Source: a bacterium (GTDB lineage: Bacteria > CG2-30-53-67 > CG2-30-70-394). Taken from it: a stretch of DNA of 12,961 nt. The notes under the pieces are model-generated. The model made no database searches. It worked only from the letters and a program-made list of their open reading frames with translations, and was not told where the DNA came from. Below are positions 1-12,123 of this stretch, piece after piece. Within the stretch, counting starts at the first letter, position 1. Every line of letters starts with the position of its first letter. The stretch is taken from the NCBI GenBank assembly GCA_024278555.1, contig JAJRSX010000025.1, positions 1-12,961 on the forward strand, in the 5' to 3' direction. The translations under genes were made by a program, and so were the position numbers.

Positions 1-230
1 CGGCCAAGCCCCCCCTCCCCCCCGCCGCCCTCACCCTCCCCGCCTCGCTCCACGAGCGGCTGATAGCGGCGGCGCGCCTCAACGCCTTCACCGAGATCGA
101 CGCCCTACTCACCGAGGTGGCGGCCACCGGCGACCGCGGCGAGGTCCTCGCCGCCCACCTGCGGACCCTGCTCGATCGCTACGACAGCGACGCCATCCTC
201 ACCACCCTGGAGCGTGTGACCCATGGCTGA
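1..230 (+). CDS. C-terminal fragment of a probable hybrid sensor histidine kinase
   Basis: An open frame enters the window from the left and ends at TGA 228-230, giving about 75 visible residues. It is a Pro/Ala-rich linker (AKPPLPPAALTLPASL) followed by an amphipathic helical segment with a pattern of 'L..L..AA..NAF.EIDALL.E' and then 'LRTLLDRYDSDAILTTLE'. This pattern is common at the extreme C-terminus of hybrid sensor kinases, after their receiver domain. The stop overlaps the start of the next gene by 8 bp (ATG at 223), so the two are translationally coupled and probably act in one pathway: kinase first, response regulator second. No catalytic motif lies inside the window. The kinase assignment therefore rests on tail resemblance and gene context. 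It could instead be the tail of another two-component protein. Confidence 0.6.
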   Translation, partial: AKPPLPPAALTLPASLHERLIAAARLNAFTEIDALLTEVAATGDRGEVLAAHLRTLLDRYDSDAILTTLERVTHG

Positions 231-1395
231 CCCCCCTCCCACGGCGCTGCCCGGCGCCAAGATCCTCATCGTCGACGACACCCCGGCGAACCTCGACCTC
301 CTGCGCGACATCCTCGCCCCGATGGGCTACCGGATCTTCTTCGCCACCGGCGGCGAGCAGGCGGTGCGGGTGGCGACCGATGCCCTCCCCGACCTGATCC
401 TGCTCGATGTGAACATGCCGCAGGTGGACGGCTTCGAGACCTGCACCCGGCTGAAGAGGGTGGAGGGGGTGGCGGAGATCCCGGTGATCTTCGTCACCGC
501 CCGCACCGACGTGGACGACCTCGCCCGCGGCTTCGCGGTCGGCGGGGTCGACTACATCACCAAGCCGATCAAGCAGCCGGAGGTGGAGGCGCGGGTGCGC
601 ACCCACCTGCGAATCCAGGGGCTGATCGCCGAGCTGCGCGAGCTCAACGCCACCAAGGACCGCTTCTTCTCCATCCTCGCCAAGGAGCTGCGGCCGGCGG
701 TCGCCGCCCTCGCCGAGGCGGGGACGACCCTGCACGGGGCCGCCCGCCACGACCACCCGGCGCCGCCGCCGGGGGAGCTCCTGGCAATCACCGACGGCGC
801 CGAGTCGGTCCTCACCCTCATGGAGAACCTCCTCGAGTGGCCGCGGGTGGGGCGGGGGCAGAAGCTCGACCTCTACGACTCCCCGGTCACCGATGCCACC
901 CTGGCGAGCCTCGCCGACGGGCTGCCCGAGCTGCGCTTCCTCTCCCTCGCCGACACCCGGGTGACCGACGCCGGCCTGGCCCACGTGGCGCGCCTCACCG
1001 GCCTGCATGAGCTCCACCTCGACAACACCCCGGTGACCGACACCGGCGTCACCCAGCTCACCCCGCTGACCGACCTGCGCATCCTCGACCTGAAGGGGAC
1101 GCGGGTGACCGACGCCGGCCTGGCGATCGTCCGCTCCTTCCCCCGACTCCAGGCCCTCTACCTCACCCGCGCCCCGATCACCGACGCCGGCCTGGCCCAC
1201 GTGGCGACCCTGGCCGACCTGCGCACCCTGATCCTCTGGGACACCCCGATCACCGACGCGGGGCTCGACCACCTGCGCGGCCTCACCCGCCTCACCGACC
1301 TCATCTTATGGAGCACCCAGGTCACCGACGCCGGCGTCGCCGCCCTCGCCGAGGCCCTACCGGAGTGCGACATCAGCGCCCACATGGCCGGGTAG
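223..1395 (+). CDS. Response regulator with degenerate kinase DHp helix and C-terminal leucine-rich repeats
   Basis: A 390-residue protein in three parts. Residues 13-130 form a CheY-like receiver with the full active site: D18/D19, phospho-acceptor D62 (LLDVNMP), T92 and K114 (KP). Residues 138-212 look like a histidine-kinase dimerisation helix pair: 'LNATKDRFFSILAKELR' matches the usual 'KDKFFSIIAHDLR', but the phospho-accepting His is replaced by K154 (codon AAG 682-684). The second helix ends in 'LMENLLEWPRVGRGQ'. No ATPase domain follows. Residues 213-390 instead carry seven leucine-rich repeats of about 24 residues with the core [VI]TDAGL..L..L..L..L.L. The likely role is a phospho-receiver that signals through an LRR protein-binding surface, with no DNA-binding or enzymatic output visible. 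It starts inside the end of the upstream kinase-like gene, its probable partner. Receiver and LRR calls are firm; the pseudo-kinase origin is inference. Confidence 0.9.
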   Translation: MADPPPTALPGAKILIVDDTPANLDLLRDILAPMGYRIFFATGGEQAVRVATDALPDLILLDVNMPQVDGFETCTRLKRVEGVAEIPVIFVTARTDVDDLARGFAVGGVDYITKPIKQPEVEARVRTHLRIQGLIAELRELNATKDRFFSILAKELRPAVAALAEAGTTLHGAARHDHPAPPPGELLAITDGAESVLTLMENLLEWPRVGRGQKLDLYDSPVTDATLASLADGLPELRFLSLADTRVTDAGLAHVARLTGLHELHLDNTPVTDTGVTQLTPLTDLRILDLKGTRVTDAGLAIVRSFPRLQALYLTRAPITDAGLAHVATLADLRTLILWDTPITDAGLDHLRGLTRLTDLILWSTQVTDAGVAALAEALPECDISAHMAG

Positions 1396-2448: not shown

Positions 2449-2760
2449 ATGCGTGTGGCCGGTATTCGTGAGGTGAAGAATCAGTTGAGTGCCTTTTTGC
2501 GCCTCGTGCGCGAGGGCGAGACGGTGCTCATCAGCGACCGGGGCAAGGTCGTCGCCCAGCTCCTGCCGCCCCCCGCCTACCCGACCTCACCCTACGAGGG
2601 GGAGGTCGAGGCGCTCCACCGCCTGGCGCGGGCCGGGATTCTCCGCGTCGGCAGCGGTGAGCCCGCCAGCGTCCACGAGCCGCCGGTGGCGCTGCCCGAG
2701 GGGGAGGTCGATCTCGACGCGGTGCTGGACGAGACCCGGAGCGAACGGGGTCTCGGGTGA
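2449..2760 (+). CDS. Phd/YefM-family antitoxin
   Basis: 103 residues. The N-terminal 40 residues have the family pattern 'VAGIREVKNQLSAFLRLVREGETVLISDRGKVVAQLLP': a sheet-helix DNA-binding domain in which 'I.E.K..L..FL..V..GE.V.I.DRGK.VA.L' is diagnostic. The acidic C-terminal part (about 60-103, ending DLDAVLDETRSERGLG) should wrap and inhibit the toxin. It overlaps the PIN toxin gene by four bases (GTGA), the standard translationally coupled arrangement. Antitoxins of this family normally repress their own promoter, alone or with the toxin. The ATG is preceded by no ribosome-binding site but by a well-placed -10 box. The pairing of a Phd-type antitoxin with a VapC-type toxin is known. Confidence 0.88.
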   Translation: MRVAGIREVKNQLSAFLRLVREGETVLISDRGKVVAQLLPPPAYPTSPYEGEVEALHRLARAGILRVGSGEPASVHEPPVALPEGEVDLDAVLDETRSERGLG

Positions 2761-3161
2761 TCTACCTCGACACCAGCGTCTTGCTCCAGCTCTATCTCCG
2801 CCAGCCACGGGCGGAGGAGGCACGAGCGATCCTGGCGACGAACGAGCCCAAGGTCGCCTCCTGGCTCCTCGCCGTGGAGGCGGTGGTGGTCCTGCGTCGC
2901 GCCCTCGGCGACGCGGCGGGTGCACTGCTCACCCGCCTCGACCTGGACCTGAAGGCCCTCTCCCTCGTGGACCGCCTCTCTGAGGTCGCCGAGCGGGTGC
3001 GCCAAGACCCCCGTCTCGCCCACTGCCGCAGCCTCGATGCCCTGCACGTCGCCACCGCCCTCGAGCTTCAGGCGATGGCCGGCCACGCGGTGCGCCTCGC
3101 CACCTTTGACAGCCGCCTCGCCGCGGTGGCACGCGAGGTGGGGCTCACCGTCGTCGGGTGA
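2757..3161 (+). CDS. vapC: PIN-domain ribonuclease toxin (VapC type)
   Basis: 134 residues, a normal length for VapC toxins. It opens with MIYLDTSVLL, and the four acidic metal-binding residues of PIN nucleases are visible: D5, E41 (LLAVEAVVVL), D94 (SLDALHVATA) and D118 (ATFDSR). PIN toxins cleave specific RNAs, often tRNA or rRNA, when the antitoxin is degraded. It starts at GTG 2757, overlapping the antitoxin stop. An ATG is absent at this position and GTG places MIYLDTS correctly at the family N-terminus. It converges on lon with 22 bp between the stops and no clear terminator. All key residues are intact, so the toxin is probably active. Confidence 0.9.
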   Translation: MIYLDTSVLLQLYLRQPRAEEARAILATNEPKVASWLLAVEAVVVLRRALGDAAGALLTRLDLDLKALSLVDRLSEVAERVRQDPRLAHCRSLDALHVATALELQAMAGHAVRLATFDSRLAAVAREVGLTVVG

Positions 3162-3183: not shown

Positions 3184-5628
3184 CTACCGCCCCCTTTTTG
3201 CCCCGCGCTTGCGCGGCATAAAGGCGATGGCGGCGACCTCCGCGTAGGTGGAGGCGAAGTGGACGGTGAGCCCCTCCGTGATGTGGTCGGGGAGCTCCTC
3301 CACGTCGCCCCGGTTGGCCTCCGGGAGGATGAGCTCGTGGATGCGCACCCGGCGGGCGGCGATCACCTTTTCGCGGATGCCGCCCACCGGCAAGACCTGG
3401 CCGGTGAGGGTGAGCTCGCCGGTCATCGCCAAGGGTCGGGCGATCTTCTTGTTGCGCGCCAGCGACAGGAGCGCCGTGGCCATGGTGACCCCGGCCGAGG
3501 GGCCGTCCTTGGGGGTCGCCCCCTCGGGGACGTGGAGGTGGAGGAAGGCGTCGTCGAAGTAGTCCGCCTCCACCCCGAGGCTCTCGGCGTGGCCGGCGAC
3601 AAAGCTGTAGGCGATCGACGCCGACTCCTGCATCACCTCGCCGAGCTTGCCGGTGAGCTTGAAGCCGCGCTGCTTGCCGTGCACCCGCGCCGCCTCCACA
3701 TCCAGGGTGACCCCGCCCATGGGGGTCCAGGCGAGGCCGGTGACCACGCCGACCCCGCGCTGTGGCTGCTCGGTGTGGAAACGCTGCTTGCCGAGGTAGG
3801 GCTCCAGGCCGCCGCGGGCGATGCGGATCGGCGCCTTGGTGCCGTCCAGCAGCGCCACCACCGCCTTGCGGGCGATGCGGCCGAGCTGCTTCTCCAGGGC
3901 GCGCACCCCGGCCTCGCGGGCGTAGCCGTCGACCAGCTCGCGGAGCGCCGCGTCGGTGATCCGTAGGTCGCCGCGCTTCAGCCCCACCTTCTCCAGGGTG
4001 CGCGGCCAGAGGTGGTTCTTGGCGATCGCTACCTTCTCGCGGGTGATGTAGCCGGCGAGGTGGATCACCTCCATCCGGTCGAGCAGCGGCCGGGGGATGG
4101 TGTCGAGCTGGTTGGCGGTGCAGATGAAGAGCACCTGGGAGAGATCGATGCGGACGTCGAGGTAGTGGTCGAGGAAGTCGCAGTTCTGCTCCGGGTCGAG
4201 GACCTCCAACAGCGCCGAGGCCGGGTCGCCCTGGTAGCTCGCGCCCACCTTGTCGATCTCGTCGAGGACGATCACCGGGTTGGCCACCTCCACCTCCTTC
4301 ATGGCGTGGATCAGCTTGCCCGGCATGGCGCCGATGTAGGTGCGCCGGTGACCCTTGATCTCCGCCTCGTCGCGCATCCCCCCGAGGGAGAAGTGGTACA
4401 TCTTGCGCCCCACCGCCTCGGCCACGGAGCGGGCGATGGAGGTCTTGCCCACCCCCGGCGGCCCCACCAGGAGCAGAATCGAGCCGGCGATCTCCCCCTT
4501 GTGGGCGCCCACCGCGAGGAGCTCGAGGATCCGCTCCTTCACGTCGTCGAGCCCCTCATGGTCGCGGTCGAGGATGGCGCGCGCCTCCTTCAGGTCGAAG
4601 CGATCCTCAGAGGTCACCCCCCACGGGAGCTGGGTGAGCCAGTCGAGGTAGTTGCGGGTGACCCCGTACTCGGGCGAGCCGACGTCGAGGACGGAGAGCT
4701 TCTCCATCTCCTCATCCACCCGCGTCTGCGCCTGCTCCGGCAGGGTGAGACCGTCGAGGCGCTTGCTGAACCGCTCCAGCTCGGCGGTCTTGTCGTCCTT
4801 GGAGATGCCGAGCTCCTTCTGGATCTCCTTGAGCTGCTCCTTGAGGAAGAAGCGGCGCTGCTGCTCGGTCATCTGCTCCTGCACCGAGTCGCGGATCTTG
4901 GCGTGCAGCTTCGCCACCTCCAGCTCCTTTTTGAGCAGGCCGAGGACCCGCTCCATCCGCTCCACCAGGGGGAAGGTCTCCAGAACCGCCTGCAGCTCCT
5001 CCTTGGTGGCGGTGGTGATGGCGGCGGCGAAGTCGGCAAAGGGGCCCGGCTCGCCGAGGCCGAAGCGGCCGAGAAAAAGCTTCAGCTCCTCGCTGTAGAC
5101 CGGATTCAGCGGGATGAGCTCCTTGAGGGTGGTGGAGATCGCCATGCCGTAGGCGCGTAGCTCCTCGTCGCTGGGGGTGGCGATCTCCGGGTACTCGACC
5201 CGCGCCACCAGGGGCAGCTCGGTGGAGAGCCACTCGACGATCCGAAACCGCTCGATCCCCTGGGCAATGAAGCGCACCACCCCCTGGCGCTGCCCCGGCT
5301 CGTGGACCCGTGCCACGCAGCCGACCTCGTAGGCGGTGTCGGTGGAGAGGTCACCGCCCTCCTCGCCACGGGCAAGGAGCAGGCCGGCCATGTGGTGGCC
5401 GGTCTCGCCGATCGCCTCGATCGTCTTCAGCCACCGCTCCCCCTCCAAGAGGATGGGCATCCCCTGACCGGGGAAGAAGGGGCGCTCCCAGACCGGGATG
5501 ATGTGGAGGATCGTCGGCAGGACATCGCCCTGGCGGGCGATCTCGGTGGTGTCGACGCTCTCCTCGAGGGTCTCGCCGGCCGCGTCGGGCTCCTCGGTCG
5601 GGTCCTGCTCGGATGGATCGCGCTCCAT
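3184..5628 (-). CDS. lon: ATP-dependent protease Lon (LonA type)
   Basis: 814 residues; E. coli Lon has 784. Order: an acidic leader (1-35), the N-terminal substrate-recognition domain (about 36-230), a coiled-coil region (about 232-310), the AAA+ module with Walker A GPPGVGKTS (K395) and Walker B VIVLDEID (D456, E457), then the protease domain with catalytic S711 in KDGPSAG and K754 in GGIREKV. It ends in a basic tail (MPRKRGAKRGR). Lon degrades misfolded and regulatory proteins, including many antitoxins, in the cytoplasm. The start at 5628 was chosen because GGAGA lies six bases upstream and the protein then has a normal Lon N-terminus. The frame stays open to 5850, but that extension is low-complexity and unlike Lon. 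The gene stands alone, without clpX or hupB beside it. It is convergent with the toxin gene and divergent from rnfA. Confidence 0.97.
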   Translation of the reverse strand: MERDPSEQDPTEEPDAAGETLEESVDTTEIARQGDVLPTILHIIPVWERPFFPGQGMPILLEGERWLKTIEAIGETGHHMAGLLLARGEEGGDLSTDTAYEVGCVARVHEPGQRQGVVRFIAQGIERFRIVEWLSTELPLVARVEYPEIATPSDEELRAYGMAISTTLKELIPLNPVYSEELKLFLGRFGLGEPGPFADFAAAITTATKEELQAVLETFPLVERMERVLGLLKKELEVAKLHAKIRDSVQEQMTEQQRRFFLKEQLKEIQKELGISKDDKTAELERFSKRLDGLTLPEQAQTRVDEEMEKLSVLDVGSPEYGVTRNYLDWLTQLPWGVTSEDRFDLKEARAILDRDHEGLDDVKERILELLAVGAHKGEIAGSILLLVGPPGVGKTSIARSVAEAVGRKMYHFSLGGMRDEAEIKGHRRTYIGAMPGKLIHAMKEVEVANPVIVLDEIDKVGASYQGDPASALLEVLDPEQNCDFLDHYLDVRIDLSQVLFICTANQLDTIPRPLLDRMEVIHLAGYITREKVAIAKNHLWPRTLEKVGLKRGDLRITDAALRELVDGYAREAGVRALEKQLGRIARKAVVALLDGTKAPIRIARGGLEPYLGKQRFHTEQPQRGVGVVTGLAWTPMGGVTLDVEAARVHGKQRGFKLTGKLGEVMQESASIAYSFVAGHAESLGVEADYFDDAFLHLHVPEGATPKDGPSAGVTMATALLSLARNKKIARPLAMTGELTLTGQVLPVGGIREKVIAARRVRIHELILPEANRGDVEELPDHITEGLTVHFASTYAEVAAIAFMPRKRGAKRGR

Positions 5629-6086: not shown

Positions 6087-6689
6087 ATGCTCGACGCCTT
6101 GGTGCTGGTGATCGGCGCCATCCTGGTCAACAACTTCGTTCTCGCCCGTTTTCTCGGGATCTGCCCCTTCCTTGGGGTCTCCCAGAAGGTCGAGACGTCG
6201 CTCGGGATGTCCGCCGCAGTGACCTTCGTCATGACCATGGCGGCGATCGCCACCTGGCTCGTCTACCGGATGATCCTGGTGCCGCTGCACATCGAGTACC
6301 TGAAGACCATCGCCTTCATTTTGGTGATCGCGTCGCTGGTGCAGCTCGTGGAGATGGTTCTGAAAAAGACCAGCGAGGCGCTCTACGAGACCCTGGGGAT
6401 CTACCTGCCGCTGATCACCACCAACTGCGCCATCCTCGGGGTCGCGCTCCTGTCGTTGCAGCAGCAGGACAGCTTCATCGAGGCGGCGATCTTCGGCTTT
6501 GCCGCGTCCGTGGGCTTCGCCCTGGCGTTGCTCCTCTTTGCCGGCCTGCGCGAGCGGATCGTCCTGTCGAAGGTGCCGGAGGCGTTTCAGGGCAACGCCA
6601 TCAAGCTGGTCACCGCCGGCCTCCTTTCCCTGAGCTTCATGGGGTTTGCCGGGATCGACAAGGGGATCGCGCGGGTCTTCGGCGGATAA
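6087..6689 (+). CDS. rnfA: Rnf electron transport complex subunit RnfA
   Basis: 200 residues, almost entirely hydrophobic, with about six membrane segments as in RnfA/NqrE proteins. Family signatures are visible: '[19 protein letters not shown]' near the N-terminus (C26) and '[15 protein letters not shown]' (C114). These two cysteines correspond to the ligands of the membrane-embedded iron-sulfur centre in this family. RnfA is one of the core inner-membrane subunits of the complex that couples electron flow between ferredoxin and NAD to ion transport. The start has a GGAGG (6076-6080) six bases upstream. rnfB follows after 75 bp, so the two form a short operon. The other Rnf genes are absent, which is unusual. 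The identification is secure. Confidence 0.97.
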
Positions 6690-6764
6690 GGGCCCGAAAA
6701 CTTGGGGCGTTACTCGCGTGTGCCATGGCCCCTCCCCTCCATTTGCACCGATGAGGAGAACGAC

Positions 6765-7610
6765 ATGATCGAGGCAGTCCAGGCAGTTGCAGGTCTCGGT
6801 GGGATGGCGCTGGCCGCCAGCTTTGGACTCGGAGTGGCGGCGCGGAAGTTCTACGTCCCGGTCGACCCGAAGGTCGACGAGATCGACGACGCCCTCCCCC
6901 ACGCCAACTGTGGCGCCTGTGGCTTCCCCGGCTGCCGTCCCTTTGCGACCGCGGTGGCCAAGGGCGACGCGGAGACCGACGGCTGCCCGGTGGGCGGTGC
7001 CGGAACCGCGATGGAGGTGGCCAAGATCATGGGGATGGAGGTGGTGGAGGGCTCCAGCGATCCCCTGGTGGCAATGGTCTACTGCGCCGGCGGCACCCAC
7101 AACGCCTCGGACAAGATGGTCTACGAGGGGCCTCACGACTGCCGCACCCTGGCGCTGATCGGCGGCGGCCAGAAGGACTGCTCGTTTGCCTGCATCGGCC
7201 TCGGCACCTGCACCGTCGAGTGCCCCTTCGACGCCATCCACATGAACGCCTTCCTCCTCCCGGAGGTGGACTACACCCGCTGTACCGGCTGCCGCATCTG
7301 CGCCGAGGTGTGTCCGAAAAACGTCATCGACATGGTACCGATCACCCAGGACGTCCACATCGCCTGCTCCTCCCACGACAAGGGCAAGGCCACCAAGTCG
7401 GTCTGCCTGGTCGGCTGCATCGCCTGCAACAAGTGTGTCAAGGCGTGTCCGGTGGACGCCATCGCGATCAACAGCGACCTCGCGGAGATCGACTACACCA
7501 AGTGCGACAACTGCGGCGAGTGCATCCAGGTGTGTCCCACCGACATCATCGTGAACTACAGCCACAAGCGGAAGCAGGCCGCCGAGCTGGCGGCCCTCGC
7601 CGCGGCGTAG
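6765..7610 (+). CDS. rnfB: Rnf electron transport complex subunit RnfB, long multi-cluster form
   Basis: 281 residues. Residues 1-25 form a membrane anchor. The Fes-type cluster follows: C49, C52, C57 and C74 (ANCGACGFPGC...CPVGG). Further cysteine sets are C139/C143/C149/C153, C173/C176/C179/C183, C218/C221/C224/C228 and C247/C250/C253/C257, with extra cysteines at 107, 126, 201 and 214. At least five [4Fe-4S] clusters are thus predicted. Short RnfB/RsxB of enterobacteria is about 190 residues with three. The long form is typical of acetogens, Bacteroidetes and delta-like lineages. RnfB receives electrons from ferredoxin and passes them into the complex. The ATG at 6765 was chosen for its GAGGAG six bases upstream; the same frame is open from 6702 but without a site. 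It is the last Rnf gene here and no rnfC follows. Confidence 0.97.
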   Translation: MIEAVQAVAGLGGMALAASFGLGVAARKFYVPVDPKVDEIDDALPHANCGACGFPGCRPFATAVAKGDAETDGCPVGGAGTAMEVAKIMGMEVVEGSSDPLVAMVYCAGGTHNASDKMVYEGPHDCRTLALIGGGQKDCSFACIGLGTCTVECPFDAIHMNAFLLPEVDYTRCTGCRICAEVCPKNVIDMVPITQDVHIACSSHDKGKATKSVCLVGCIACNKCVKACPVDAIAINSDLAEIDYTKCDNCGECIQVCPTDIIVNYSHKRKQAAELAALAAA

Positions 7611-9046: not shown

Positions 9047-9130
9047 TGGGGTCAGGCTTGCAAACTTGCAAGTTTGGACCTCGCTGTTGGCCACCAACGG
9101 CAAACTTGCAAGTTTGCAAGCCTGACCCCA
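9047..9130 (+). mobile_element. Nested-palindrome element (REP/RAYT-like), copy 2, intact
   Basis: The 30-bp arms (9047-9076 and 9101-9130) are perfect inverted repeats. They begin TGGGGTCAGGCTTGCAAACT and each ends in the 16-bp self-complementary CAAACTTGCAAGTTTG. The 24-nt centre matches the reverse complement of the copy 1 centre and contains GTTGG-CCA-CCAAC. The element sits 31 bp past the stop of the minus-strand permease gene, in a gap between convergent genes. No transposase lies beside it. Confidence 0.85.
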
Positions 9131-9161
9131 ATTTTGAAAGCTGAGAGCTACAAGACCCCCG

Positions 9162-11256: not shown

Positions 11257-12123
11257 ATGCGGCTTCTGACACCCCATTACCCCTGGTGGCTCGCTCTCTT
11301 CGGTAGCGCACTCCTCGCGGCCGCCCCACCGGCCGTTGCCATCACCCTCCCCCTCACCGACTTTCCCCAGGCGATCCAGGACGGCGTCGCGGCGGGAGCG
11401 ACCCTCAATACCTCCACCGGCCTCGATTCGAACGGCCGCAGCGCATTTCCGTACGTCCCAGTGGGCGGCTCGGTCGAGTGGCTCCTCCGCTACCCCCTCG
11501 ACCCCGCCTCGAGTCGGGTGGCCGCCACCGACGACGGCTCGGGCACCTGGACCACGGTGACCACGCCGCTTACCGGCTACATCTGGCTGGAGGCGCCGGA
11601 CTCCATGCCCCCGGACCCCTTCGGGCCGGCGCTCACCCAGGTCCCCTTCACCCTCTACACCGACTTCGTCACCCCCACGCCGGACAACCTGTGGTTTGGC
11701 GGTGACCGATTCGCGGGCAACGGCTCCCCCAACCTGCCGGTGACCATGCCCTCTGCCGACGCCGTCGCCGTCGCCGGCCACGCGAGCCGGCGGATTGGTC
11801 TCGATTTCTACAACGGTGACTACGACACCGGCACCCTCCGCACGGTGGGCTACCCCGGTGGTGAGGGGCTCCTCCCCTGCCTCGACGACACCTGCGAGGT
11901 GAGCGCCGAGCTCAACCTCGTGGGGCTCGATTACAGTCTCGGTGGCCCCCCCTTCAACCCCGTCGACCCGACCGCCCTCCTCTACCGCCAGAACAGCCAG
12001 TACTTCGGCAGTTCGGGCTGGAACACCACCCAGTCCTACTACGTCGCCCCGGTCCCGGAGCCGGTGAGCCTCCTGCTCCTCGCCCCCTGCCTCGCCCTCC
12101 TGGTGGTGCGGCGGCGCGCCTGA
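11257..12123 (+). CDS. PEP-CTERM sorting domain protein, secreted
   Basis: 288 residues. An N-terminal Sec signal peptide (about 1-28, cleavage after AVA) is followed by a polar region rich in Pro, Thr, Gly and Asp with no recognised domain. The C-terminus is a PEP-CTERM tail: 'VPEP' (PEP at 267-269), a hydrophobic helix (270-284) and a basic end RRRA. Such proteins are exported, then processed by an exosortase, usually in organisms that make extracellular polysaccharide. The exosortase is not in this window. Two cysteines (LLPCLDDTCEV, about 208-213) may form a small disulfide loop. The start has a strong AGGAGGT (11249-11255), but unusually close to the ATG, one base away; no better downstream start exists. 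The function of the middle region is unknown. Confidence 0.88.
   Translation: MRLLTPHYPWWLALFGSALLAAAPPAVAITLPLTDFPQAIQDGVAAGATLNTSTGLDSNGRSAFPYVPVGGSVEWLLRYPLDPASSRVAATDDGSGTWTTVTTPLTGYIWLEAPDSMPPDPFGPALTQVPFTLYTDFVTPTPDNLWFGGDRFAGNGSPNLPVTMPSADAVAVAGHASRRIGLDFYNGDYDTGTLRTVGYPGGEGLLPCLDDTCEVSAELNLVGLDYSLGGPPFNPVDPTALLYRQNSQYFGSSGWNTTQSYYVAPVPEPVSLLLLAPCLALLVVRRRA

Follow-up and report, generated by a model that had tools for sequence, protein, structure and literature searches.

In the DNA analysed here, a window of 12,961 bp from contig JAJRSX010000025.1, the second gene of a putative signalling operon encodes a 390-residue protein in which a receiver (REC) domain and a DHp-family hairpin are followed by leucine-rich repeats (LRRs) in place of the ATPase domain of a histidine kinase. 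We propose, with a probability of about one half, that the gene derives from a Rec-HK in which the phospho-acceptor His was lost and LRRs took the place of the ATPase domain, and that its product is a phosphorylation-controlled dimeric LRR adaptor. We document below the domain content of the protein, its homology, the domain junction, the helix phase, the operon order and the conservation of the arrangement in two species (Table 1).

Table 1 Coordinates of the gene, its parts and the kinase fragment upstream of it
Feature	Position	Strand	Basis
C-terminal 75 codons of TM-PAS-HisKA-HATPase-REC hybrid kinase	1..230	+	74% identity to sister kinase C-terminus
REC - pseudo-DHp - LRR protein, 390 aa	223..1395	+	ATG overlaps kinase stop by 8 nt
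Receiver domain, residues 12-128	256..606	+	Pfam Response_reg E 5e-28; five signature residues
Signalling helix alphaS, about residues 118-141	574..645	+	AlphaFold helix 118-175; K114-154 spacing
Pseudo-DHp hairpin, residues 131-213	613..861	+	Profile 63 bits; HHalign E 1.3e-21; alignment
Lys154 codon AAG, phospho-acceptor His position	682..684	+	AAG in sister species too
Seven 24-residue LRRs, LxxLxLxxTxVTDAGL type, + C-terminal strand, residues 214-387	862..1383	+	Pfam; AlphaFold

A putative Rec-HK descendant that carries leucine-rich repeats

The start codon at position 223 is preceded by GGAG at 209-212. Pfam recognises a receiver and LRRs in the protein (Response_reg, E 5e-28; LRR_4, E 7e-16) and returns no match to HisKA or HATPase, even at E<10. 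A preliminary description of the locus had given the coordinates and residues D18, D19, D62, T92, K114 and K154 exactly as we find them, and it was right that the phospho-receiver is complete, all five of its signature residues being present, and that the ATPase domain is missing with seven 24-residue LRRs in its place. Structure prediction, which that description had suggested as a check, bears this out: AlphaFold gives a receiver at ~95 pLDDT, a helix at residues 118-175, a loop, a helix at 183-210 and an LRR solenoid at 214-387 (~95 pLDDT), with low values, ~50-75, for the hairpin and for the hinge between DHp and LRRs. The receiver matches PleD, PhoP, PhoB and others by sequence and fold. 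A reading of the gene as part of a defence system was rejected, PADLOC giving only weak matches, both inside the receiver.

Beyond one ortholog, the nearest relatives of the protein are REC-HisKA-HATPase proteins of 370-390 aa from Spirochaetes, Bacteroidetes, Deltaproteobacteria and other groups; all nine relatives scanned with Pfam have REC, HisKA and HATPase_c (in one of them HisKA scores below the curated threshold). Among Rec-HKs, LvrB serves as the structural prototype (PMC13269768; PDB 8vc9, 9qqw, 9qr2). Like LvrB-type Rec-HKs, the protein has an N-terminal receiver, a homologous DHp and a gene beside that of a hybrid kinase, and its length is similar (390 aa vs 382 aa for LvrB); unlike them, it has Lys154 in place of the phospho-His and an LRR solenoid in place of the catalytic domain, and has no kinase output. 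A Rec-HK with a replaced catalytic half is the best account of these features, in line with the preliminary description, which saw a hybrid kinase with its catalytic half swapped for a protein-binding surface. Judged by its sequence, the protein would be a descendant of the Rec-HKs that now falls outside the class, because it has neither the phospho-His nor the CA domain.

The gene overlaps the end of a hybrid kinase gene

The window opens on the end of a gene whose product, over 68 residues of the 75-residue fragment, is 74% identical to a kinase of a sister species, Nitrospirae bacterium CG2_30_70_394, with the Pfam domains TM-PAS-HisKA-HATPase-REC. Together with the 8-nt overlap, this agrees with the earlier suggestion of a hybrid kinase encoded by an overlapping gene. 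The remainder of the kinase lies at positions 3422-5369, at the end of another contig (C45) of the same genome. The last bases of that contig are CGGCCAAGCCCCCCC, matching the first bases of the window, followed by a poly-C run that looks artificial; the break (window positions 1-25) lies in a C-rich tract inside the kinase gene. Because C45 ends, just before the poly-C, with the same first 15 bases, the two contigs are adjacent and the kinase gene is split by the contig break.

The preliminary description had also envisaged a phosphorelay. Pfam detects no HPt domain in the sister species' upstream hybrid kinase, and an HPt in the kinase tail was considered and rejected, there being no Pfam HPt match and the tail's His being Asn in a related kinase tail (L010). 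Since no HPt was detected and direct transfer is enough, the phosphorelay is unsupported as stated. Direct His-to-Asp transfer would be the simpler route, by analogy with LvrA and LvrB, between which transfer of phosphate from the LvrA His to the Asp in the LvrB receiver has been measured (PMC5863495). A hybrid kinase with a receiver is also encoded directly upstream at about ten Rec-HK loci, a gene order that the LvrA-LvrB plan of a hybrid kinase plus a Rec-HK matches, and because of this we read the locus as an apparent Rec-HK operon, the second gene of which has had its catalytic domain exchanged for LRRs. Gene order, the one aspect tested here, fits phosphorylation of the protein by the upstream kinase.

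A DHp-family hairpin with lysine at the phospho-acceptor position

By several comparisons, residues 131-213 are a real hairpin of the HisKA/DHp family. Against a DHp profile of the subfamily the segment scores 63.3 bits, somewhat inflated since the profile was built from relatives found by similarity to the query, whereas the best of 200 shuffles scores 1.4 bits. When HHalign compares the query pair with 15 bona fide DHp sequences, 80 columns align with an E of 1.3e-21, and the 15-sequence profile itself recognises HK853, RetS, LvrB and other solved histidine kinases. BLAST with the DHp segment alone finds ~100 histidine-kinase DHp segments, and the motifs NATKDRFFSI and ENLLEW are common to the query and its DHp relatives. 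A chance match, which would have undone the HisKA-like assignment of the preliminary description, is ruled out by the profile tests. The junction between DHp and LRRs falls at residues 212-214, where the relatives go from the DHp towards the ATPase domain.

Alignment confirms that lysine replaces the phospho-accepting His, as had been claimed, and Lys154 is found in both species; His occupies this position in 21 of the 21 distinct REC-DHp proteins measured outside this genus. The H box reads KELRPA here and HDLRxP in relatives, and the stretch after the His position is KELRPAVAALAEAG, against a Rec-HK consensus of HDLRxPFxxxxG. A further change, absent from the preliminary description, is at His+5, where the expected Pro is replaced by Ala159 and a Pro stands at 158 instead. 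The missing phosphatase Thr/Asn at His+4 was dropped as evidence of a dead DHp because Rec-HK relatives vary at that position (G/S/A/N/T). In two other loci, L073 (frame from 5335) and L079 (frame from 5059), DHp segments of the subfamily likewise lack the His (H-box sequences ANDLKIP and ARDLQSP, with ~157 residues still after them), so that the phospho-acceptor appears to have been lost more than once in this DHp subfamily.

A DHp without a phospho-acceptor is known from DivL of Caulobacter, which has Tyr for His, keeps its DHp, binds DivK~P by protein-protein contact, and depends on neither DHp phosphorylation nor the CA domain for what is essential in vivo (PMC4211667). The pseudo-DHp could, on this precedent, dock a partner response regulator or the kinase's own receiver while the LRRs hold a further partner, and the protein would then read the phosphorylation state of another protein and not only its own. 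Identity of 90% between the two species in the first DHp helix, around the lost His, speaks for such docking. The residues after the His position diverge from the consensus, however, and a protein whose own receiver is intact has no need to read another; we consider this reading unlikely. DivL also differs from the present protein in having a PAS input, Tyr rather than Lys and a CA domain, and in having neither a receiver of its own nor LRRs.

The signalling helix appears to remain in register

In the AlphaFold model the signalling helix alphaS runs unbroken from REC alpha5 into DHp alpha1, and, as in Rec-HK relatives, it is continuous with alpha5 and has the same heptad phase. Counted from the receiver Lys to the His position, the spacing is 40 residues in 19 of 24 distinct REC-DHp proteins, a set that includes the two LRR proteins (both 40); the remaining five spacings are 33, 47 (two), 54 and 68, all of them 40 plus a multiple of seven. 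A heptad rule for REC-DHp spacing has likewise been described for Rec-HKs in the LvrB study (PMC13269768). Because the K114-154 spacing equals the Rec-HK mode of 40, the signalling helix is still in register. That the phase was retained after the chemistry was lost is the best single argument that a mechanical switch is still in use, an argument rather than proof since it comes from one origin in two closely related species.

The LvrB study explains the heptad rule by phosphorylation of REC turning alphaS into a coiled coil, straining the junction with the constitutive DHp dimer, and short helices lost the coiled coil in the LvrB simulations (PMC13269768); by our estimate alphaS is here probably about two heptads shorter than that of LvrB. 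Up to the DHp, the protein probably works like a Rec-HK. The proposed adaptor would have arisen when an LvrB-like Rec-HK lost its phospho-acceptor His and an LRR solenoid replaced the ATPase domain at the DHp boundary. Most likely, the upstream hybrid kinase would phosphorylate Asp62 directly; on phosphorylation the paired REC domains would change their arrangement, and the alphaS coiled coil would form above the constitutive DHp dimer, both as in LvrB. In LvrB this movement sets the catalytic domains free. In the present protein it would alter how far apart, or how accessible, the two LRR arms are, and would thereby switch the binding of proteins on or off. What we infer in this scheme is phosphotransfer, dimerisation, the switch and that there is a protein ligand, and it counts against the adaptor explanation that candidate partner genes for the LRRs are linked to it by proximity only. 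Given the pLDDT of ~50-75 in hairpin and hinge, passage of the signal from the DHp to the LRRs stays a proposal.

The low confidence at the hinge, and the fact that the switch is reasoned from homology, would also suit a constitutive dimeric LRR scaffold, with a receiver that helps it dimerise or acts as a phosphate sink and with LRRs that bind independently of phosphorylation. Retention of all the catalytic receiver residues and of the exact alphaS phase argues against it. This unswitched scaffold, which we find as improbable as the DivL-like reader, is with that reader the main rival of the adaptor.

The leucine-rich repeats

The repeats score well above the Pfam cut-offs (LRR_4, 58.4 bits, cut-off 27; LRR_6, 37.7 bits, cut-off 23.4). 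The LRR_4 match is unique to this gene within its genome, and the LRR part finds no match in the six other genomes of the class. The closest LRR sequence that we found, 52% identical over 143 residues, belongs to a protein of genome G042 in which Pfam recognises LRR domains only. We infer that the LRRs were gained by fusion with a foreign LRR. The repeat length of 24 residues and the consensus are those of bacterial LxxLxLxxTxVTDAGL-type LRR proteins; unlike the G042 protein, the present one has a receiver and a pseudo-DHp. Between the two species, LRR substitutions number 3 of 54 in the concave strand segment and 15 of 90 elsewhere (Fisher p 0.07), which is a trend only towards avoidance of the concave strand face.

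In joining a receiver to an output that, from its sequence, would be neither DNA-binding nor enzymatic, the protein resembles protein-binding response regulators such as DivK, CheY and RssB; unlike them, it has as its output a dimer hairpin derived from a kinase, together with LRRs. DivK and CheY are single-domain response regulators that act through protein binding (PMC12471899). Among the loci fetched, no other LRR protein has a receiver, and no match convincingly spanning both DHp and LRRs was found in 386 genomes across the domain or in 119 genomes of an LRR-rich phylum. No second REC-DHp-LRR family was found in the genomes sampled, by a contig scan that reaches close relatives only; among plasmids, no place covers 80% of the query; and our literature search found nothing relevant on REC-LRR or LRR-output response regulators. 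The earlier surmise that the architecture may be undescribed is consistent with these searches, which sampled the databases rather than exhausting them.

Conservation in a sister species, and neighbouring genes

CG2_30_70_394, the only other genome of the genus in our genome set (eight genomes for the phylum), encodes the same fusion with 85.6% identity, the same junction and K154, and with D18, D19, D62, T92 and K114 all kept in both species. Its gene has the same 8-nt overlap with an upstream TM-PAS-HisKA-HATPase-REC kinase gene, and lon is convergent to it. The reading frame is unbroken in both species, and dN/dS is ~0.38 overall, compared with 0.41 for the kinase and 0.30 for lon. By parts, with wide intervals, it is 0.26 for REC, 0.35 for the DHp helices (90% identical) and 0.36 for the LRRs, and 0.96, also with a wide interval, for the hairpin loop (64% identical); REC, DHp helices and LRRs thus look constrained, whereas the hairpin loop does not.

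The loss of both the His and the ATPase domain, and the partial duplication of the 3' tail of the gene downstream, might be expected of a decaying pseudogene or of a chimeric assembly joining a Rec-HK to an unrelated LRR gene. In the other species, however, an independent assembly shows this fusion with the same junction and the same operon, dN/dS is near that of the kinase and lon with the frame intact in both, and the genome has no other LRR_4 with which to chimerise, so that this explanation is largely refuted and highly improbable. The preliminary description had allowed that homologs with His at 154 plus an ATPase domain might exist and this copy be a misassembly: such homologs do exist, but because an independent species has the same fusion, evidently under purifying selection, the gene is not a misassembly.

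The duplication is a tandem one (1333-1709 and 1818-2195, ~485 bp apart, ~92% identical) of a unit comprising the gene's last 20 codons and ~310 bp downstream; the 1818-2195 copy keeps the open tail with a different stop at its end, and the sister species lacks the duplication. An interspersed repeat of ~320 bp lies at about 2066-2404, with >20 further full or partial copies (74-88% identity) on contigs genome-wide; it may be an intergenic element of a mobile or MITE-like kind. At 1715-1816 and 9047-9135 there is a partly palindromic element (~80 bp, AACTTGCAAGCCTGACCCC core), of which the genome has at least 10 copies, on both strands. Overlapping genes for a Phd/YefM antitoxin and a PIN-domain toxin (2449-3161) lie with the repeats between our gene and lon, where the sister species has merely ~190 bp. 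Further along the window are a two-gene unit for an Rnf/Nqr membrane subunit and then an RnfB-like ferredoxin with FeS and several 4Fe-4S domains (6087-7610), and a gene for a secreted-looking protein that has no Pfam match and a PEP-CTERM-like tail, VPEPVSLLLLAPCLALLVVRRRA (11257-12123).

RssB, a response regulator that acts through protein binding, is a receiver-based adaptor that delivers clients to ClpXP, and the present protein might similarly deliver LRR-bound clients to Lon. Besides the RssB precedent, this would fit the position of lon, which in the window is the closest conserved gene downstream and, in the sister species, the next gene, ~190 bp away and convergent. Convergent adjacency in two related genomes is by itself weak evidence, however, and the operon partner is the kinase; a role in Lon proteolysis is very unlikely.

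Discussion

The activation of Rec-HKs has been resolved only recently, with LvrB. In a natural homolog that has the receiver, the helix phase and the DHp without the chemistry, the mechanical switch and catalysis come apart, and it becomes possible to ask directly whether phosphorylation of REC moves whatever the DHp carries. Tentatively, the REC-alphaS-DHp unit may be a portable phosphorylation-controlled dimer switch, detachable from kinase chemistry, with the non-catalytic LRR arms found here as a previously undescribed class of output. The finding is of small scope: two species are known to have the fusion so far, and the genome set contains only eight genomes of the phylum. LRRs would join the outputs of bacterial two-component proteins, and the arrangement would yield rules for the design of proteins in which a receiver is coupled to a binding domain. 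Our analysis suggests that a kinase switch may have been reused, in this bacterium and in one sister species, to control protein binding.
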